Positions 3,108 through 33,989 of a stretch of DNA of 64,000 bases are shown piece after piece. Each line of letters begins with the position of its first letter. Position 1 is the first letter of the stretch. The position numbers and the translations under genes are program-made. The notes under the pieces are model-generated. The model searched no databases and was not told where the DNA came from. It saw only the letters and a program-made list of their open reading frames with translations. Origin of the DNA: Buttiauxella gaviniae (GTDB lineage Bacteria; Pseudomonadota; Gammaproteobacteria; Enterobacterales; Enterobacteriaceae); contig NZ_JBFMVT010000002.1 of NCBI RefSeq assembly GCF_040786275.1, forward strand, positions 3,844,001 through 3,908,000. The letters run 5' to 3'.

Positions 3108-6100
3108 ATGAATAAGTTCTATAATGTTATATGGAATGCAACACTTGGACGTTTTGTCGTTGCGTCTGAGTTAGCCCAGGGAAAGAAAAAAAGTAAATCG
3201 TCTTCAGTAGGTTCAACCTTCAGTGATGTGCTTTTTTCTAAGAAAGTTTTATTGACCTGTATACTGTCAGCCCTTGCGGCGGAAAAAAGTTCTGCGGCAG
3301 ACAGTGAAATTGGTTTCTTTACACCACAGGATTCATCCTATTCTATTCTTTCTGGTCAGGTAAATCTTATTACCGGAGGGAGTAATGGTTTTGCTAATAT
3401 TTCAACGGGCGCAGCCGGTTTCACCAATACAACGCTGCAACAAGCGCTGGATGCGGGCGTGGTCGTCACAGGGGCTGATTATATTTCCGGGGATATATTC
3501 CGGATAGGTAATAAAGGGTCAACAATTACTTATGAAGATCCTATTACTCATAATCAGACATCGGTCTCTGTGTATGATAATGCACAAATGAGCGTCGCCC
3601 CTGCTAGAGATTTTATCTTCCCTATGTCATATGCTGTTGGGGAACATGGTCAGTATGTTGATACGTCAATTTATTCCATTCAGCCGGGAGCCGTTGTTGA
3701 TGTTAATGTTGGGGTGACCGATGCTAACTGGATGAATACCGCGTCGAATCAACTATCTGTGATCATGAAAGGCAGCCAGGCGGACGTGACGACTTCTGCG
3801 GTATTTAACGTCGCAGATACCGGTACGCTGAATTATAACTCCAAAACCGTTGCTGAATTGGGGTACATTAGTAATAACAACTCTGACTCTAAATACGCGG
3901 CTTCCTTTAGTGGTGGATTCAAAGGCCAGGTAACAAGTAAAATTGGTGACTTTATTGTTGACGATCTCGCGAGCTTCCAAAGTTATAATACGGCTTTGCA
4001 GCAGGCTATTAGTGGCGGGCGTTTGCTGAGTACAGATTATGATGCGCAACTAGAATTAGCCTACGATAAAACATTAAAACAAGTGTATGTGAATACGGCT
4101 ATTCCAGACAACGATGCAACAAATATGAATGCAGACCGTGGACGAATTGCATTTATCAAAGCTGACGGGGCAGGGGCGAATGTCAATATTAGCCAGGAGG
4201 CTAATATTCAAATGTTCAGGTCTGACGCATCGTTAGTGCGTTTGCTTAACGGGGCAACATTAACCAACCTCGGAACACTGGGTACGGTCTATAACACACT
4301 GCGTGGTGCATACGTTATCTTTGCAAAAGACAGTACCATCAATAACGAAGGTGTTATTGATGCGGGCACTTACTCGGATATGACGGATTTTAATAAGTAT
4401 ACCAAAACTGGATTTAATACCGGGAGGGGAGATCAGGTTGCCATTAATGCTTCGGGTACTAGTACCATTTTAAACAATGGTGTGATTAATGTTGCACCTC
4501 GCCAGGATAATGCTGGGTCGAATGGTATTGTGACTAACGATACGACTCAGTTGACCAACAATGGTTCTATTAACCTGGCAGCCTTAGCGCAACCCGCATC
4601 TGTAAATGGAAACTATAAAGCGACGGGCGTTATTTTACAGAAGAAATCTGTCTTCGAAAATAATGGTGAACTCTATATTGGACGACTGGCACAGCGTAAC
4701 ATAAATGATGTGACGAGCGATGTGGCTGTGACCTCTTTGGGAACGTTGGGGGTTAGCCTGTTAAATGGCGGGACATTAAATAACAACGTGGGTGGGACGA
4801 TGACTATTGGCTCCCAGACCCAGGGCGCTACCGCTATTTCAGCCACCGGGAGTGCCTCTGTCGTTAATCAAAAAGGTACCGTAAACGTTAATGGCCGCCT
4901 GGGAACCGCATCCAATGCCAGCAGCAAAAATATCGGTATCAGTTCTTCATCAGGTGCCAAACAGATTACTAACAGCGGAACCATCAACCTTAATGGGATC
5001 AACTCCGTAGGTCTGCAAGTTCTCGCCGGTAGCGCCGCAACAAATAGTGGCAATATCGTGGTCAACCAGGGGGTGGATCCCGCGACGAAAACGGCTAACT
5101 ACGGTATCTGGTCTGAAGGTGTAGGGGCTAACGTGACACATTCTGGCACCGTGGAACTTAAAGGCGATCGTGCGATTGGTATCCATGCCCGTAGCCAGGG
5201 CATCGTCACACTCGGCGGTACGGGAAAGGTTGCATTTGAATCGGGTGAAAATCAAATAGGTTATTACGTCTATGGCCCTGGTTCGTCTATCAAAGACAAC
5301 AGTACCGGCGAGCAGAATGTTTCGACCAAAGGTTCGACGCTTTACCGCATTGATGGCGGCTCTTCATTTACCGGGAGTGCGGATAACACCTCAACGATGA
5401 AAGCCAGTGGTGTAAACAGCACTATTTTGCTGGTCACCGGGAAAAGTGACGACGGGAAAACCATCAGTAAGTTAAATACCGGGAAAGTGGTGCTGAATGT
5501 TGATGCTGCTGGCGCGACGGCTGTCAAAGTTGAAGGCGGGGCACAGGGCGTTCTGGATCAAGGTGTATTGCTGGCGTTAACGGCTAAAAATGCGACTGCA
5601 GGTATTGTTGACGGTAATTCAACGACTATCACTGGCGCCGCAGGAGCGACTGGAGCTTCACAATTAACCTCCTATGCGACGCTTGATAACTCCAACGCAG
5701 CCAGCGATGCCATGGGCTATATCGCACGCAATAAAGGTACGCTTATCCATAAAGGCTCCCTGAACTTTACTTCGGATAATAGCACCGGTGTATTAGTCGA
5801 CGGCGGAAACCTGGAAAATAGTAGCGATATCGCTGTCAACGGGATTGCCGTTGATATTGTTGGCGGAGACTCTAAGGTCGCCAACACCGGTACCGTTAAA
5901 GCGACAGGTGGAACAGCCGCTTACCGTCTGAAAGATGGCGCCTCTCTGGCTCTTAGCGGGCAGGGTACCACTATCGCCCAGAACGGTGCGCATGGCGTGT
6001 TGATCGAAGCACCAGCAAAATCAACGCTGCTCAAAGCGACCGCAACGTCTCAGTTGACCGTAACAGATGCCACGATCAGCGTGACAGGTACGGGAAATGC

Positions 6101-9100
6101 GATTGAGAACGGGGCGGAAGTTGCTGGCATCCGTCTTAACAATGCCAAACTGAATGTTGATCAGGGCGCGGGAATTCGTACCGGTGCTGAACTGGGAACG
6201 TCCAACAGTGGCGTGATCACAGTCAGTGGGTCTGGGGCAGGTATTGCGCTCAAACATGCTGATGGTTCGTCCACCACGGCGGATCTGAATCTGCTGGATT
6301 CGGATGGTCTGACGATTAATGTCACGGGTGCAAGCGGTTCGGGCATTGTCACCAATACCAGTGGTGAGGTGCAAAACGGTACCGTCATTAACGTAACGGC
6401 AACGGACGGCGGATCGGCTCTGGTGGTCGGTGGCACAACGGCTAACGTGATTCAGTCCGGGGCGCTCACGTCAAAATCACTGACCAAAGAAGTGGTCAAT
6501 CTGGATAACGGTAAGGTCAGCACCTTCACTAATAATGGCTCTATCAAAGCGAACAGTGCCAATCAGGTCGCGGTGGCAAGTCAGTCCGGCGCAGGGATGA
6601 CTTTCACGAACAATGCGGGCTCCAGTATCGTCGGTAAAGTTAACCTCCTGACAGGCAATAACAGCGTAAATCTTCTCAGTGGCAGTACGGGTACAGATTT
6701 CTTTACCGGCACAGGGAATGATGAATTCAATCTTAAGAATGTTAAGTCTGATGAAACCTCTCTCTTCACCTCATTAAATGGTGGCGCGGGTGCGGATACA
6801 CTGAATCTGGATAACTCAGCGTATGTGCTGAAAAACGTCAATGTGCTGACCGGCTTTGAAACCGTGAACCTTAAAAATGGTTCTACCTTTACTGAAGAGA
6901 ACACGTTGCTGGCGTTGGGTGATGACACTAATGACGCCACCGGCACCGTATTTAACATTGATAACAATAGCACCCTGGCTCTGACAAATACCGCTGATGT
7001 GGCTTTCAAAAGCCATCTGAAAGGGACGGGAACGGTCAAAGCAGACCTTTCCAATAAAGCGTTCAGCTTTACGGACAATAACAAAGGTGATGCTTTTGCC
7101 GGCACGCTTGAACTGTTAAACAGCACCTTTGAACTGGGCGGTATAAACACTCGGGCACTCAATTCCGCAAATCTGAAACTGAGCAGCGGCAGTGAGGCAA
7201 CGGTTGGACAAGGCCAGCAGAACGTGGGTGGCCTGAGTTTCAATGGGGGTACGGCAGATTTTGGCGAGCTTAATCCTGGTATCAAACAAGCCAGCAATAC
7301 AGTACACACAGCCAATACGCTGGATATCAGCGGGCAGGGCGTGGTTAAAGTTGCGCTGAATGGTGTCATTAATGACAACCCATTACCGGCAGAAAATCTG
7401 AGCCTGATGGAGCAAGACGATGCCCAGACGTTGGTGAAACTGGCCGATAGTTCAGGCGCAGTGGCCGGCAGCGGTGGCAACCTGAGGCTTAAAGATCAGA
7501 ACGGCGAAACAATCACTGATGCGGTAGTAGAAAATATTACTCAGTCTGGTGAGACTGTTGCAAAAGGAACCTGGGACTACCGTTTGACGGGCGGTGATAA
7601 CGCCGATGGTCTGTATATCAACTATGGCCTCAAGCAGGTTGAGCTTCTGGCGCAGGGAGACAACGCCTTAATACTTAATGGCAATAACGCCACAGGGGTT
7701 GCCAGCGATCTTAGTGCAAAAGTTACCGGTGCGGGTGATTTACATATCGATACCGGAACCAGCAGCGTTTCGCTCTCAAATCTGGATAACGATTATCTCG
7801 GCGAGACAATTGTGGCAAGCGGGACGCTGGCGCTGGCGAATGACAATGTACTCGGCAAAACGAGCAATTTACAGGTAGACGCCCAGAGCAAAGTCGATAT
7901 GCAAGGCCACAGCCAACAGGTTGGGGCGTTGAATACTGCGATGGGTAGCCAGATTCTGCTGGCAGAAGGGAGTGAGCTGACCATTAGCGATTCCCAGAGA
8001 AGCGCAGGCATTCTTGATGGCGGGACAATTAATGCCGATACATTAGCGGGTAGCGGTAAGTTAATTATTGATCCAAGTGTGGTGACAGTGACCGGTGCGA
8101 ATAGCGCTTATACCGGTGATACTCTCATTGAAGGTGGTTCACAGGCACTGCTGAATAATGTTTCAGGTCTGGGTGATTCAGGTACGGTGACACTTGCAGG
8201 TAAAGAAGATCGCCTGATATTTGCCAAACAATTAGCCTCTGATGCTGCAACTGTCGGTAACCTTGGTAAGCAGTTGGCGGGTACCGGTAGCATTGCGTTT
8301 AAGGACAACGCAGACATCACCTTAACCGCTGATAACCGGGCATTTGCAGGTGAATTCTCTGTAGAAGATGCGAGCCATTTACGTGCTTCAAGCGCCGAAA
8401 ATCTTGGAAGCGCTGCAATAACAAATAGCGGCGATTTACATCTGACTGCCGATCAACGCTGGGAGCTGACAAATATTGTTACGGGTAGCGGTAATCTGGA
8501 GAAACTGGGCACCCAAACGCTAATTGTTAACCGTGACCTCGCTTACACAGGTGAGACCCATATTAACGCCGGGCAACTGATCCTGGGCGATAATGCCTCT
8601 GCCAGCGGGATGCTTTCCGGTAATGGCGCGGTGAATATTGCCTCAGGCGCAACCCTGGGTGGTAACGGTGTCGTGACGGGAACGGTAAACAACCTGGGAA
8701 CTTTGGCGGCATTGAACGCCTTACCTGGCTACGCAAGTGATCGTGCCAGTACTCTGAACGTTGGCAGTTTGGTCAATCAGGGTGAAATTAAGTTGGCAGG
8801 CACGAGCGCAGGTAACACGTTGGTAGTGAATGGTAATTATGCTGGTGATAACGGTTTGCTTTCCCTTAATACTGTGCTGGGGGATGACAATTCTCTAACC
8901 GATAAACTGGTCGTAAAAGGTGATACCTCGGGTTCCACTCGCGTGCAAGTGAATAATCTGGGGGGGAATGGTGACCTGACGAACAAAGGGATTGAAGTTG
9001 TACAAGTCGCAGGCCAGTCTGACGGTAGCTTTACGTTACAAGGGCGCGCGGTTGCGGGAGCATATGACTACTTCCTGAATAAAGGGCAAGCGACTGACGG

Positions 9101-28785: not shown

Positions 28786-29137
28786 CACAAGACCGTTTTT
28801 AACCGCGCATCATGTCGCCCATGTGATGTTGCTCGTACCAGGCCCCGGTGTTTTATCGGGGCTTTTTTTATGCAAATTGTGTACGAATTGTTCTCAGGGC
28901 TTATTTAAAATAGTGTTGGGATGTGCCGAAAATATTTGGTGACTTATTTGTGGTGAAATTGTTAATGCATTGATGCGGCTATTGCGTTGCAGACGTGCCG
29001 TACATTAGGTTACATACGGATACTAATCACCTAAGGAATAACTCGCTCCACTTCTTTAATATTAAAATCCTTTTAAAATATGTTGATAGAATTGGCTTTT
29101 CTATTTTTATTTAGCAGCCTGAAAAGTAGTGTTAATT
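28786..29137. other. Intergenic region with cutC terminator and dlt leader
   Basis: No gene was seen in these 352 bases. The first part holds the terminator at 28842-28869. The remainder (28870-29137) is AT-rich and must contain the dlt promoter, but no convincing hexamers or known operator (PhoP, PmrA, S24-type half-sites) were found. It is the left border of the dlt insertion. Confidence 0.5.
28842..28869 (+). terminator. Terminator of cutC
   Basis: GCCCCG (28842-28847) pairs with CGGGGC (28857-28862) around a 9-base loop and is followed by seven T residues. Confidence 0.92.
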
Positions 29138-30277
29138 ATGAATATAAACAAAACTCTCTTTTTGCATATTGCTATGGCTGTCCTTGCAGCTTTGGTTTTA
29201 ACACTGCCTCCGTATATTAACAGTCGGAAACCTACATTAAAGTTTCAACCATTAATTAAAACCATGGAAGGGACGCGCAAAGTTCAGGCCGAAAAAATTG
29301 CAACCATTTCACATGCGCTGGATGGGAATGCGATCTTTTTTCTGGGGGCATCAGAAGTTTCAACCTCAGAAAAGGAGCATTTTGCGGTTTATAATTTTTT
29401 TAATACCAAACTGCATCACCCGACCGTGGCCTATGGTGACAGCTTTGTCGATAATATGACGCAGCTTGCTTTGTTGACGCGCTTTAAAGAGGATTTGTCG
29501 CCAAAAACGAAACTAGTGTTACTTCTGTCACCGGATAGCTTCTATTTTGATGGTATTCCACCGACAATTTTTGCCGATCATTTCCCAGATTCGATATTTA
29601 AACCATTAATGTCGGATGCAACAATGCATCCTATCTTGGCCCATTATTTAACCCATATGGATCCGCAAGACGTCGACCATTTGACGTTTAGCCAGATGCG
29701 TATTTTTGGTTGGCATTTCAGTATTGTCTGGCGAGAAATTAACTATCAGTTCTCTTCATTTTGTGAATTGATCAGAAATTATTTTTTATCATTCATCCAT
29801 TTTGGTCAATCGAATACACAATCGTGGCCTGCGTCCCCCGATAACTGGTCAAATATTGACTGGAGCGCTGAACTTCAGCAGGCACAGCAACTTAATCTTG
29901 CTCGTCATGAAAGTGCTGCAACTTTATGGATGGATAAAGAGATTTTTGCAGACGATAAAACGGTGGAAGACTGGTATACCGCACCTCCATCGCGCCCAGA
30001 AAGAGAAGCGTTTATAGCGATGATGAAACTGCTACATGAGCGTCAGGTCAATGTAGTCGTGATTATTGACCCGCTTAACCCGTGGGCGCTCAAGAATACG
30101 GAAAAATTCCAGCCGACCGATCGCTTCATCCAACAGACGCTGAAAAAATATAATACCCCATATTTTGATATGTACGACCAAAGCTATCAACCTGGGTGGA
30201 ACTGGGATCGTCTTCATCCAACCGAAGTGGCCTGGGTGGCGATGGATCGTTATATCGCAGAGGCGTTTAAAAAATGA
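29138..30277 (+). CDS. dltD: DltD-like envelope aminoacyl transferase
   Basis: DltD is the membrane-anchored SGNH-type esterase/transferase that moves D-alanine onto the final acceptor in Gram-positive cells. This 379-residue protein has one N-terminal membrane anchor (LFLHIAMAVLAALVLTLP) and then an extracytoplasmic domain. The nucleophile Ser lies in FLGASEVST (family G-x-S-E), near residue 72, and the Asp-x-x-His pair in WDRLHPTEVAW, near residue 360, completes a Ser-His-Asp triad. The start is taken as ATG 29138; a GTG at 29129 is in frame. It is the first gene of a five-gene operon D-X-B-A-C, unlike the Gram-positive order X-A-B-C-D. In a Gram-negative cell the acceptor cannot be wall teichoic acid; LPS or another envelope polymer is inferred. 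Confidence 0.85.
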   Translation: MNINKTLFLHIAMAVLAALVLTLPPYINSRKPTLKFQPLIKTMEGTRKVQAEKIATISHALDGNAIFFLGASEVSTSEKEHFAVYNFFNTKLHHPTVAYGDSFVDNMTQLALLTRFKEDLSPKTKLVLLLSPDSFYFDGIPPTIFADHFPDSIFKPLMSDATMHPILAHYLTHMDPQDVDHLTFSQMRIFGWHFSIVWREINYQFSSFCELIRNYFLSFIHFGQSNTQSWPASPDNWSNIDWSAELQQAQQLNLARHESAATLWMDKEIFADDKTVEDWYTAPPSRPEREAFIAMMKLLHERQVNVVVIIDPLNPWALKNTEKFQPTDRFIQQTLKKYNTPYFDMYDQSYQPGWNWDRLHPTEVAWVAMDRYIAEAFKK

Positions 30278-30393
30278 AAAAAGCAATCAGACTCTTTTTC
30301 CTCTATTTGTTTTTGCTGACAACGGTCATTGCCTGGTCATCTATTGATAACAGTATGAATCTGAAGCTGCATTTCGAATATCAGCAGTTTTAA
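30274..30393 (+). CDS. dltX: DltX-like single-span microprotein with C-terminal F-x-Y-x-x-F
   Basis: This 39-residue gene is too short for ordinary ORF calls. It starts with an ATG overlapping the dltD stop (ATGA) and ends 11 bases before dltB. The product has a basic N-terminus (MKKAIR), one hydrophobic span (LFFLYLFLLTTVIAWSSI) and a short polar tail ending in F-E-Y-Q-Q-F at the very C-terminus. Gram-positive DltX proteins have the same layout and end in F-I-Y-N-E-F-like motifs, whose Tyr has been proposed to carry the D-alanyl group between DltB and DltD. The size, topology, final motif and position between dltD and dltB together make a DltX role likely. The assignment is by motif, not by overall sequence similarity. 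Confidence 0.8.
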   Translation: MKKAIRLFFLYLFLLTTVIAWSSIDNSMNLKLHFEYQQF

Positions 30394-30404
30394 GGGCTAA
30401 AATA

Positions 30405-31526
30405 ATGTATACAAGCGCACCTTTTTTCGCTGTGTTGTTTGCCAGTTCGCTACTTTTCGCCGGGCTTAATCGCCTTGTGGGGAATCGGTTAACCTATGCG
30501 TCACTGTTTTCAGCTTTTGCGATGTTTGCTGTTTGGGGATACATATTCAAAAGCCAGGTAACCATCCCATTACTGATGTTTGTTTATTTGTACGGTATTG
30601 CCACGTTAAAAGACAAATCCTGGATAAAAACCTGGCAATCTGTAATTCTGAGTTTGCTGCCTCTTATTCTGGTGAAGTTGCATCTTAATAATCATTGGGG
30701 CATGTTAGGGCTGTCGTTTATGACCTTCAGAGCGGTGGATGTTTTACTCTATCGCAACAAAAAGGACTCCCGGAACTTTTTCATTTATTTCAGCTATCTT
30801 TTTTTGCCGTTTATTATCCTGGCAGGGCCGATGTATCGCTGGAGAAGTTGGATTCAGGATATTAGCAAAGCTAACTTTCGTTTAACGACGGGGGTGTTCC
30901 TGCAGTCTATGGAACAGATCTTTTATGGAATTGTGCAAAAATTCCTGTTTGCGATGTTGATTGATAACGTCATTATTAGCCACTGGAGTCACCGTCCTTT
31001 TACTCTGACCGTGGGTGTGGTGATGTCCCTGGCCTACAGTTTTTATCTTTATTTCGACTTTGCTGGCTACAGCAATATGGCTATTGGTGCCGGGCGCTTA
31101 TTTGGCCTTAATTTACCTGCCAATTTCAACTTGCCAATCCTTGCAAAAAATCCACAGGATTTCTGGCGTAGATTTCATATTAGCCTGTCGGAGTGGCTGC
31201 GTGATGTGGTCTTTATGCCAATTTATATGAATTTGATGAAGATTGAATTTTTCAGAGGGCACAAAGCCACTGCACAAAATATCGGTGTTTTTTGTACTCT
31301 ATTTTGTATGGGCGCATGGAACGGTCTGGAATTGAATTACGTTGTCAGCGGTGCTCTGTTTGGCGCAATTTCAGTTGTTCATAATATGATTCTTTGGCTG
31401 GCAAAGCGCAGCCCGGAAATGATGCTCTGGTTAAATAACCCAATTGTTTCATTAGTCGGGCGAGTTTTAACGCTGGCGAGTGCCGCAGTCTCTCTTTATA
31501 TTTTTAGCGGGATGTCACCTGTATGA
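30405..31526 (+). CDS. dltB: DltB-like MBOAT membrane acyltransferase
   Basis: DltB takes an aminoacyl group from the carrier protein DltC inside the cell and passes it across the membrane. This 373-residue protein is hydrophobic throughout, with about 10 membrane segments. The MBOAT core is clear: YLYFDFAGYSNMAIGAGRLFG, NFNLPILAKNPQDFWRRFHISLSEWLRDVVF. At the position of the invariant MBOAT His (W-H-G) it reads M-G-A-W-N-G-L-E-L-N-Y, so Asn replaces His at two places where Gram-positive DltB has W-H-G-x-E-W-H-Y. The preceding His in RRFHISLS is kept. This may mean altered chemistry or use of the remaining His. The stop overlaps dltA by ATGA. Confidence 0.88.
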   Translation: MYTSAPFFAVLFASSLLFAGLNRLVGNRLTYASLFSAFAMFAVWGYIFKSQVTIPLLMFVYLYGIATLKDKSWIKTWQSVILSLLPLILVKLHLNNHWGMLGLSFMTFRAVDVLLYRNKKDSRNFFIYFSYLFLPFIILAGPMYRWRSWIQDISKANFRLTTGVFLQSMEQIFYGIVQKFLFAMLIDNVIISHWSHRPFTLTVGVVMSLAYSFYLYFDFAGYSNMAIGAGRLFGLNLPANFNLPILAKNPQDFWRRFHISLSEWLRDVVFMPIYMNLMKIEFFRGHKATAQNIGVFCTLFCMGAWNGLELNYVVSGALFGAISVVHNMILWLAKRSPEMMLWLNNPIVSLVGRVLTLASAAVSLYIFSGMSPV

Positions 31527-32959
31527 CTACTAATTCTGAACTACAGCAACTCAATGATTATCTGCGGGCCATGTTGCTCGACCCGCAAAATGGCCACCAA
31601 CCCGCGATCACGGGTAGTGACAAGAGTCTGACCTGGGCGCAACTTGGGGCTGGTGTTTTTAATTGGTCGGCGCGTTTTTCAACGTTAAAATTGGCAGCTA
31701 ACGTTCCAGTGGTACTTTACGGTCACCAGCAGGCGGAGTTTGCTTGTGCAATTTATAGCTGCTTATTGCATAACATTCCTTATATACCGGTCGATAATAT
31801 CTATCCGGTAGAACGCCTGAAAGAGATCTGCGAATTATCCAGCGCACCTTTCTATTATGACGCTCAGCAATGCTGTTTTGTGGCAACGGGTCTTCCTGCG
31901 CAAGAACTGGAACAACGTGATTTGGCTTACATTATGTTTACTTCTGGCAGCACCGGTAAACCTAAAGGTGTGCAAATTGGTCGGGAAAGCGTGTGGAATT
32001 TCATGCAATGGCTACGTTCTGATTTTTCTCTTCCTGCTAATCCCGTATTGATGAACCATGCCGTATTTAGTTTCGACTTATCCTTAATTCCACTGCTTGG
32101 GAACCTTGCTACAGCAGGGCACCTTGTACTAAATGCAAAAGAAGATATTGCAGGCGAAAACTGGTTAGCAAGTCTTAAGCAAGAAAAGGTGTCAGTATGG
32201 GTTTCTACACCTTCATTTGCTTATCAAAAATTATTGCTTCCTGAATTTCGCGCTGATTATTTGTCCGATCTTAAAGTGTTTATTTTTATCGGCGAAGTAC
32301 TGAGTAAAGCGCTGGTCAAGCATTTGCGCCGTCTGTTCCCTGAGGCAAAAATACTCAACTCCTATGGCCCAACCGAAGCGACAGTCGCCACCACGGTGGT
32401 AGAAATTAGCGATGAAATGCTGAAAGAGTCGTGCGATCTCTTGCCGATAGGCCACATGATGCCGCATTCGGAAATGGAAATTACCGCAGATAACGAATTA
32501 ATTATCTGGGGAAAAAACGTGATGCGCGGCTATCTCGGTTTGCCTGATGAGAATGCCCAAAAACTTTTATGGAATGGAAATAAACAATGGCGCGGCTATA
32601 AAACCGGCGATTTGGGGCATGTCAGGAATAATTACCTCTATTGCCAGGGACGTAACGACAGCCAGATTAAAATGAATGGCTACCGTATTGAAATCCATGA
32701 AATCGAAAACCGTCTGTTGGCACTTTCGGGTATTAGCGAAGCGGTGGTGTTACCCCTGACTAAAAAAGATGGTGCTGTCTTACGCCTTGCCGCTTTTTGC
32801 ACCTCAAAGCTTTCTGAAAAAGAGATCAAAGCGACTCTCGCACAAACTTTACCGTCTTATATGGTGCCATCTCAGATTGTCATCATGGACGCATTACCTC
32901 TCAACCCTAACGGGAAGATTGACCGCAAATTACTCGATGCACAGGCTCGCACCTGTTAA
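31523..32959 (+). CDS. dltA: DltA-like amino acid adenylating enzyme
   Basis: DltA activates an amino acid with ATP and loads it on the phosphopantetheine arm of DltC. The 478-residue protein has all adenylation-domain motifs in order: YIMFTSGSTGKPKGV (A3), FSFDLSLIPLLG (A4), NSYGPTEATVATT (A5), YKTGDLG (A7), GRNDSQIKMNGYRIEIHEIE (A8) and NPNGKIDRK (A10). Length and order fit DltA rather than a fragment of a peptide synthetase. In Gram-positive DltA the segment F-C-G-E contains a Cys important for choosing D-Ala over L-Ala; here it is F-I-G-E, with Ile at about residue 256. The amino acid used is therefore uncertain. No alanine racemase is encoded nearby. Confidence 0.88.
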   Translation: MTTNSELQQLNDYLRAMLLDPQNGHQPAITGSDKSLTWAQLGAGVFNWSARFSTLKLAANVPVVLYGHQQAEFACAIYSCLLHNIPYIPVDNIYPVERLKEICELSSAPFYYDAQQCCFVATGLPAQELEQRDLAYIMFTSGSTGKPKGVQIGRESVWNFMQWLRSDFSLPANPVLMNHAVFSFDLSLIPLLGNLATAGHLVLNAKEDIAGENWLASLKQEKVSVWVSTPSFAYQKLLLPEFRADYLSDLKVFIFIGEVLSKALVKHLRRLFPEAKILNSYGPTEATVATTVVEISDEMLKESCDLLPIGHMMPHSEMEITADNELIIWGKNVMRGYLGLPDENAQKLLWNGNKQWRGYKTGDLGHVRNNYLYCQGRNDSQIKMNGYRIEIHEIENRLLALSGISEAVVLPLTKKDGAVLRLAAFCTSKLSEKEIKATLAQTLPSYMVPSQIVIMDALPLNPNGKIDRKLLDAQARTC

Positions 32960-32976
32960 TCATCTAAGGGCAGAAA

Positions 32977-33195
32977 ATGGAACAGAAAGTTTTAGCATTA
33001 TTTGAAAGTGTTTTATCGCGTAAAGTCGCTTTTCACGATGAGCTGATTGAATCCGATATTCTCGATTCTATTACCGCCGTTGACGTGGTTCTGGAAGTGC
33101 AAGCGGAATTCGGATGCGCCATTCCACCGACCGAAGTGGCAAGTGTCCTGAAAACGCCTGCAATATTAGCGGCATGGCTTGAAGAAAACGCTTAA
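32977..33195 (+). CDS. dltC: DltC-like carrier protein
   Basis: This 72-residue acyl-carrier-like protein receives the activated amino acid from DltA. The attachment Ser is in ESDILDSITAVDVVLEVQ, corresponding to the D-S-L/I motif at the start of helix 2. The protein is short, acidic and helical, as is usual for DltC (about 78 residues). It needs a phosphopantetheinyl transferase such as AcpS, which is not in the window. The gene follows dltA by 17 bases with a ribosome site (AAGGGC) and ends the operon at a strong hairpin. Confidence 0.9.
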   Translation: MEQKVLALFESVLSRKVAFHDELIESDILDSITAVDVVLEVQAEFGCAIPPTEVASVLKTPAILAAWLEENA

Positions 33196-33275: not shown

Positions 33276-33989
33276 CTAACCGTGACGACGGAACTCCTGC
33301 GTCTGGCTTATCAGCACTTTTCCATAGATATAAAAGCGGTGCTCATTGCTTTTTTCTATCGCCCATTCGCGGTACTTAGTGTTGTCGGAAAGAACCAGAA
33401 TGCGGTCCGGCACCATTTGCAGCCGCTTGACGTGAATTTTATCGTCAAAGCCAAAAACATAAATTCCGTCGCCGTCAAACTGACGAACCGCCACGTCGAC
33501 AAAGATCAAATCGCCAGGCTCCAGAGTGCCGGACATACTGTCGCCGCGTACGTTGATGACTTTTACCGCCGATTCGGGCCGGCCGCCGAATAGCGCTGCG
33601 GCGTGTTCGGCGTTGTAGACAATAGAGTGGATGATATCAACCACATCGCTCCCGCTTACGTACCCCTCACCAGCACTGGCGCTGACATCCAGTATTTCTA
33701 CACGAAACACATTTCCATCCTTCTGTTCACTTTCAACAGGGCTACTGGTTTTATGTACAGTATAGTCAGTTTCGTTGTGAGTAAACAGATCGTTGACGTT
33801 GATGGCAAGCGCCTCGGCGATACGCCCAAGCAGGTCTTCAGTGAAGGACTTTTGTTTACCGGTTTCCAGGCGCGAGATATTGCCAGCATCGCTCCCAATA
33901 GCTTCAGCCAGATCGGTAATGGTCATGTCTCGCCGCTGGCGAATTTCACGAATGCGTTTTCCAATATTCATAGCGTCATTAAAAGTCAT
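33276..33989 (-). CDS. XRE-family repressor with S24 (LexA/CI-type) peptidase domain
   Basis: This 237-residue regulator joins an N-terminal XRE helix-turn-helix (IGKRIREIRQRRDMTITDLAEAIGSDAGNISRLETGKQ) with a C-terminal S24 self-cleaving domain. The cleavage region is DVSASAGEGY (Ala-Gly), the catalytic Ser lies in NVRGDSMSGTLEPGDLIFVD and the Lys in KIHVKRLQM. It therefore resembles phage CI-type repressors that are inactivated by RecA during DNA damage. No other phage gene is found around it. The start is uncertain: the ATG at 33989 has no ribosome site and directly follows operator-like repeats, and the ATG at 33971 is an alternative. It is divergent from the DUF1996 gene and probably controls that gene and itself. 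Confidence 0.88.
   Translation of the reverse strand: MTFNDAMNIGKRIREIRQRRDMTITDLAEAIGSDAGNISRLETGKQKSFTEDLLGRIAEALAINVNDLFTHNETDYTVHKTSSPVESEQKDGNVFRVEILDVSASAGEGYVSGSDVVDIIHSIVYNAEHAAALFGGRPESAVKVINVRGDSMSGTLEPGDLIFVDVAVRQFDGDGIYVFGFDDKIHVKRLQMVPDRILVLSDNTKYREWAIEKSNEHRFYIYGKVLISQTQEFRRHG

Follow-up and report, generated by a model that had tools for sequence, protein, structure and literature searches.

A DltX-like microprotein gene in an enterobacterial dlt operon, next to a short DltB with asparagine at the catalytic histidine position

Does an enterobacterium possess a separate microprotein that could carry acyl groups on a C-terminal tyrosine between DltB and DltD? The question arises from a 64,000-nucleotide stretch of the Buttiauxella gaviniae genome (contig NZ_JBFMVT010000002.1; hereafter the window). 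An operon of five genes, in the order dltD, microprotein gene, dltB, dltA and dltC (D-X-B-A-C), occupies positions 29138-33195 of its plus strand, as read from the sequence, the list of open reading frames (ORFs) and family profiles. The Gram-positive DltB clade uses a separate protein, DltX. An earlier note on this DNA had proposed that the small gene encodes a DltX-like protein and that the aminoacyl relay of Gram-positive bacteria exists in this enterobacterium. We consider it about 80% probable that the microprotein serves as the acyl shuttle, in the form of a separate subunit, of a Dlt-type machine that modifies the envelope of enterobacteria.

The microprotein ORF extends from the ATG at position 30274 to the TAA ending at 30393 (plus strand, as for all operon features below) and encodes 39 residues, MKKAIRLFFLYLFLLTTVIAWSSIDNSMNLKLHFEYQQF. 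Its start codon overlaps the stop codon of dltD in an ATGA (30274-30277), and a gap of 11 nucleotides separates it from the ATG of dltB at 30405. The N terminus is positively charged, and one membrane span is predicted by hydropathy alone, the best 19-residue window scoring 1.86 from residue 4. The hexapeptide F-E-Y-Q-Q-F (30373-30390) forms the very end of the protein and includes Tyr36 (codon 30379-30381), the residue proposed to carry the acyl group. A solved-structure search with the microprotein gave only two weak matches, at E 0.1 and 0.9, and neither protein is related to it. The small coupled gene between dltD and dltB, with its single span and its tail, is as the earlier note described it. 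The note had also called the gene hidden, which holds only in part: two plasmid records already list the ORF as a 'hypothetical protein'.

The microprotein is present in 16 of the 198 genomes sampled across the family of the window; the copy in G028 has a disturbed 5' end. Within the genus Buttiauxella, 9 of 12 genomes contain the ORF, and the remaining three also lack dltB; another genome of the genus encodes an identical microprotein, and the DltB proteins of seven Buttiauxella loci are 87-92% identical to that of the window. A DltB-profile scan of a species-genome collection gave 78 pattern matches, which were reduced to 54 relatives and 50 distinct loci from Buttiauxella, Pectobacterium, Dickeya, Kosakonia, Enterobacter, Phytobacter, Cedecea, Lelliottia, Pluralibacter, Symbiopectobacterium and a few others. 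An ORF ending in F-E-Y-Q-[QK]-F lies immediately 5' of dltB in all 50 of these loci from named genomes, and the pattern F.Y..F-stop occurs elsewhere in them only six times in the three plus-strand frames. The window, the 50 loci and two plasmids make up a set of 53 operons. The tail is FEYQKF in 42 of them and FEYQQF in 11, so that 53 of 53 fit FEYQ[QK]F; the 5' part of the microprotein is out of frame in L089 and L100. Both the frame and its tyrosine motif are kept among these relatives, in agreement with the claim of a conserved gene. In a thin sample of the class (369 genomes), a microprotein profile had no match outside the genome of the window itself. The DltB query has a near relative (at least 70% identity) in 6 of 398 genomes of the phylum, with the other matches listed at no more than 109 bits, and 8 of 394 genomes of the order match it at E 1e-30. 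The region 30000-31600 has no match in the E. coli genome collection.

Selection was estimated from 44 distinct nucleotide sequences derived from 51 of the 53 sources; L089 and L100 were left out because their 5' ends are out of frame. The pooled ratio of nonsynonymous to synonymous rates (dN/dS) of the microprotein is 0.137, and the ratio of nonsynonymous to synonymous proportions (pN/pS) is 0.219, compared to 0.202 for 49 dltB sequences. Residues F34, E35, Y36, Q37 and F39 are invariant in all 44 sequences, and their codons vary only synonymously, with both TAT and TAC in use for Tyr36. The two other reading frames are interrupted by stop codons in 44 of 44 sequences, and the length of the microprotein is nearly constant. 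An ORF so short, overlapping the end of dltD, might be a chance frame or a translational-coupling spacer that yields no functional protein. The low dN/dS, the near-constant length, the invariant tail and the stops in the other frames make this explanation extremely improbable, and a chance ORF was rejected by these selection and frame controls. Selection on the protein is present, and the 39-codon ORF is a real gene.

In the family of the window, the tyrosine motif comes either from a microprotein beside a short DltB or from the C terminus of a long membrane-bound O-acyltransferase (MBOAT), with no exception among the 198 genomes. A DltB profile identified MBOATs in 28 of these genomes, 16 of them short and 12 long. 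The short MBOATs, of about 373 residues (the G028 copy is broken), occur in exactly the 16 genomes that have the microprotein. All 15 readable short enterobacterial DltB proteins end in SGMSP[LV] and contain neither FxYxxF nor WHG. The 12 long MBOATs, of 469-496 residues, belong to genomes without the microprotein, and every one ends in its own FxYxxF and keeps WHG. Sixty-six long-type loci were read (L044 and L120 among them are one gene): 59 have the fused FxYxxF, all 59 with WHG, whereas four gave no frame and three gave frames without the motif (L025 and L029, at contig ends, and L042). In a Burkholderiaceae-like family, 57 of 250 genomes have an MBOAT, and most among the matches listed are of the long type. 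The kinship of the window's DltB is closest with Gram-positive DltB: in a midpoint-rooted tree of 45 MBOATs, a 100/98 branch separates the enterobacterial and Gram-positive DltB proteins together from the fused-motif enzymes, and the enterobacterial stem is long, at 2.58 changes per column.

The dltB gene (30405-31526) encodes a short MBOAT of 373 residues whose own C terminus lacks FxYxxF. Its product matches the solved DltB structures 6bug and 8jem (E 4e-33 and 5e-33), and it scores 202 bits against TIGR04091, below the cut-off of 375 bits, which none of the 198 family genomes exceeds. In the alignment to 6bug, His336 of Streptococcus DltB corresponds to Asn306 of the window's DltB (31320-31322), where AWNG stands in place of WHG. 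The asparagine is present in the window and in 50 of 50 loci, encoded by both AAC and AAT. One of the two scan patterns by which these loci were collected, FCMGAWN, contains the asparagine, and the other, LNNHWGM, does not; the independent profile search found asparagine in all 15 readable short DltB proteins, many from the same species. The corresponding residue is histidine in 32 of 32 comparison MBOATs (8 Gram-positive DltB proteins, two of which are encoded by lone plasmid dltB genes, 20 fused and 4 other short enzymes). The other active-site position is unchanged: at His258 (31176-31178, in FWRRFH), the equivalent of His289, all 13 enterobacterial MBOATs compared and all 32 others have histidine. 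Residue 257 is phenylalanine versus tryptophan, and residue 315 serine versus an aromatic residue, in the 32 other enzymes. The conserved His97 is confined to the enterobacterial group in this comparison. According to the available excerpts of the papers cited here and below, the catalytic histidine is universal among MBOATs and needed by both PatA and DltB (PMC12148441), His336 is invariant in DltB, and His289 lies across the inhibitor from it (PMC11035591). Eukaryotic MBOATs have asparagine or aspartate at the first position and histidine at the second (PMC11035591, PMC8316800); the pair is reversed in enterobacterial DltB, with histidine first and asparagine second.

Several results weigh against the microprotein being an acyl shuttle related to DltX. 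Asparagine replaces the supposedly universal catalytic histidine of MBOATs, and canonical MBOAT chemistry therefore cannot be transferred unchanged. The Pfam DltX profile (PF12459) has no match in the window's own genome, with positive controls in Bacillus subtilis and Lactococcus lactis, and it matches none of 13 aligned microproteins at E values up to 10. Comparison of the microprotein with Gram-positive DltX by hhalign gave a probability of 4.8%, with six columns outside the tail, and 3.4% when 36 microprotein sequences were used; the microprotein and 58 fused C termini gave 2.4%, and Gram-positive DltX and the same 58 C termini 58%, through the tail. The power of hhalign is low for 39 residues of little diversity, and the outcome still counts against homology. 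The two Dickeya loci compared do not include the DltB of the strain in which a dltB mutant was studied. Membership of the microprotein in Pfam DltX by sequence was rejected for want of a profile match and of hhalign support.

These observations bear on a rival explanation, in which the microprotein does no more than link DltB and DltD, structurally or as a regulator, while DltB, lacking its catalytic histidine, acts as a conduit rather than a transferase, and DltD receives the acyl group by another route. The asparagine found in every enterobacterial operon read would fit such a role, as would the missing profile similarity to DltX outside the tail; other small single-span proteins serve as structural subunits. 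However, a link of this kind has no need for an invariant F-E-Y-Q-x-F that ends at the last residue, nor does it account for the retention of His258, Trp254, Arg256, Trp305 and much of the MBOAT core in DltB. We therefore regard it as rather unlikely. Mutation of dltB renders Dickeya polymyxin-sensitive (PMC3544676), and so the pathway presumably works despite the asparagine.

We favor the acyl shuttle and hypothesize the following relay, in which the topology of the microprotein, the acylation of its tyrosine and its complex with DltB and DltD are modeled on Gram-positive and PatA work. DltA would activate an amino acid and load it onto DltC, which would present it as an aminoacyl thioester to DltB on the cytoplasmic side. 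From there, DltB would move the group through the inner membrane onto Tyr36 in the periplasmic C-terminal hexapeptide of the microprotein. The tail may then swing to DltD, whose GASE serine would accept the group and pass it to an envelope acceptor. Enterobacterial DltB would have to carry out the transfer with His258 and Asn306, or with another base, such as the conserved His97, replacing the usual His336. To our knowledge, there is no teichoic acid in enterobacteria, and teichoic acid is therefore not expected as the acceptor. The conserved tail, the selection on the gene and the split or fused motif in 28 of 198 genomes support an aminoacyl relay in an enterobacterium, as the earlier note proposed; the relay step itself we infer.

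The motifs of DltD and DltC are intact. The dltD gene (29138-30277, with a GTG at 29129 as an alternative start) encodes a membrane-anchored SGNH-type acyltransferase with the nucleophile motif GASE and the block-V motif DRLHPTE; GASE and D..HP were each read in 50 of 53 operons. DltD scores 88.6 bits against PF04914 (cut-off 22.7, E 7e-25) and 71 bits against NCBIfam TIGR04092, below the 150-bit cut-off, and weakly matches the solved DltD 6o93 (E 0.00027). The carrier protein DltC (32977-33195) has an LDS phosphopantetheine site and matches PF00550 at E 8e-8. Its motif S[DG]ILDS was found in 47 of 53 operons; in some of the others, the script picked another ORF. The aminoacyl-carrier-protein ligase DltA (31523-32959) matches the structures 3fcc and 3dhv at E 3e-79 and scores 360 bits against TIGR01734, below the cut-off of 559.85 bits.

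The substrate of the relay is probably a small amino acid, which need not be D-alanine. Cys269 of Bacillus cereus DltA lies at the bottom of the D-alanine pocket and is a major determinant of the choice between D- and L-alanine (PMC4176424; the pocket cysteine is also covered in PMC8972799). It aligns with Ile256 of the window's DltA (32288-32290). Isoleucine (FIGE) occupies this position in all 51 readable operons of the 53, versus cysteine in 5 of 5 Gram-positive DltA proteins. With a ligase that lacks the D-alanine-selecting cysteine and a DltB that lacks the MBOAT histidine, neither D-alanine nor the same catalysis should be assumed. The relay may pass on an acyl group other than D-alanine, be it glycine, a different D-amino acid or some other small acid. 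Such a switch would account for the concerted replacement of cysteine by isoleucine in DltA and of DltB residues 306 (histidine to asparagine), 257 (tryptophan to phenylalanine) and 315 (aromatic to serine), at all of which the enterobacterial enzyme departs from the 32 other MBOATs. The alanine-pocket residues Asp197, Leu198 and Val301 are, however, conserved in the alignment, and we rate a different acyl group as a real possibility at somewhat under even odds. It is compatible with the shuttle function of the microprotein, and the confidences in the two do not sum to one.

Tiny proteins also accompany short MBOATs elsewhere. Five short MBOATs in other Gram-negative operons, single loci each, keep WH in their active sites, and next to each a tiny single-span protein is encoded. 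These proteins are encoded at 4936-5091 (plus strand) in L162, with the tail GFIYWDN; within 4855-5070 (minus strand) in L161, AFLYLHR; at 4964-5101 (minus strand) in L159, ATLAYLH; at 6111-6239 (minus strand) in L160, AYFRYQRN; and at 5014-5175 (plus strand), without a listed gene, on the Sulfitobacter plasmid L204, QIIYIDLQEAQ. Their tails hold an x-x-Tyr motif without the final phenylalanine (FIYWDN, FLYLHR, LAYLH, FRYQRN and IIYIDL), and the five are candidates for independent shuttle microproteins. The ligase of L161 bears a fused carrier domain; L162 and L204 have at its place an AMP-binding protein with an end that looks carrier-like by eye, and L159 contains a frame of 906 residues. 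We tentatively picture a separate Gram-negative branch, a scenario that we would not yet bet on: it would combine a split shuttle, a mirror-image dyad with histidine on the horizontal helix and asparagine on the transmembrane helix, a ligase without the D-alanine-selecting cysteine, a different aminoacyl group passed over a tyrosine relay to an envelope acceptor, and independent tiny shuttles in further MBOAT operons.

Some copies of the operon are on plasmids. The D-X-B-A-C operon is flanked on both sides by insertion sequence elements on plasmids of Klebsiella electrica and Enterobacter cloacae, and only the end of dltB, dltA and dltC were read on a Klebsiella pneumoniae plasmid, where the match begins at the start of the record (the set of L047, L048 and L173). 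The DltB of L047 is identical to that of Phytobacter diazotrophicus (L074). An enterobacterial dlt operon also appears in a record titled Chryseobacterium sp. (L061), perhaps through assembly contamination; its microprotein matches that of the family genome L016 except at one residue. Frames are disturbed in Symbiopectobacterium L089 (the 5' end of the microprotein and a short dltA frame) and L099 (dltB), consistent with decay of the pathway. Gram-positive plasmids carry dltB homologues at 3650-4849 in L164 and 3674-4861 in L168. The annotation of the stretches analyzed lists no further dlt gene and places the homologue in L168 after a bactofencin-type bacteriocin gene. In the window, a convergent ORF of 237 residues (33276-33989, minus strand), which by eye resembles a helix-turn-helix/S24-type repressor, directly follows the operon. 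The PhoP-box pattern with up to two mismatches has 18 matches in the window versus 17.9 expected, none of them between cutC and dltD, and promoter-like sites number 7 versus 9.5 in shuffled sequences.

Gram-negative dlt operons (PMC3544676, PMC5541007) and tyrosine acyl shuttles fused to Gram-negative MBOATs (PMC12148441) have been published, and the new part is the split microprotein. A literature search found no separate Gram-negative microprotein in the excerpts available, its coverage not extending to the primary 2023 paper on the DltX relay. The available part of the 2025 PatAB paper describes MBOAT/SGNH pathways other than Dlt as having no DltX-like microprotein (PMC12148441). With the enterobacterial operon, the range of the microprotein comes to include Gram-negative bacteria, and the Asn306 of the operon's DltB contradicts the statement in that paper that all MBOAT proteins have the catalytic histidine (PMC12148441). 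Enzymology gains an MBOAT that naturally lacks the residue presumed to be the catalytic base, and the genetics of Gram-negative Dlt systems, in which a dltB mutant is polymyxin-sensitive, gains a missing subunit.

The operon of the window belongs to the same family as dltBAC of Dickeya and Pectobacterium, and both genera are among the 50 loci. In Dickeya, dltBAC is induced, and the dltB mutant shows 99% mortality with polymyxin (PMC3544676). In the available part of that paper, the name dltD is given to pbpG, and a small gene is not mentioned. In both Dickeya loci that we read (L065 and L080), dltD and the microprotein gene lie directly 5' of dltB, and DltB has the asparagine.

The microprotein has a C-terminal FxYxxF, an invariant tyrosine, a single span, 39 residues compared to the 40-50 expected of DltX, and a place in an operon with dltA, dltB, dltC and dltD. 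Position, size, span, tail and the kinship of its DltB make it DltX-like, and we file it as such, outside Pfam DltX; the identity given in the earlier note stands for these features and fails for membership of the family by sequence. DltX of Staphylococcus, Streptococcus and Bacillus is likewise a single-span protein of about 40-50 residues with N-terminal positive charges and a terminal FxYxxF, encoded in the dlt operon and partnered by a short DltB without its own motif. Its tail, however, is FIYNEF in the four proteins compared, as against the enterobacterial FEYQ[QK]F, and its gene precedes dltA, whereas the enterobacterial gene lies between dltD and dltB. The partner DltB differs in having asparagine for the catalytic histidine, and no sequence similarity between the two microproteins was found outside the tail. 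The tyrosine carries the acyl group both in Gram-positive DltX and in the fused Gram-negative PatA, in which acyl-tyrosine has been demonstrated with acetyl-CoA as the donor and no carrier protein (PMC12148441). Fused MBOATs of the PatA/AlgI type share with the enterobacterial system the terminal hexapeptide pattern and the SGNH partner, but they bear the motif on the MBOAT itself and keep WHG.
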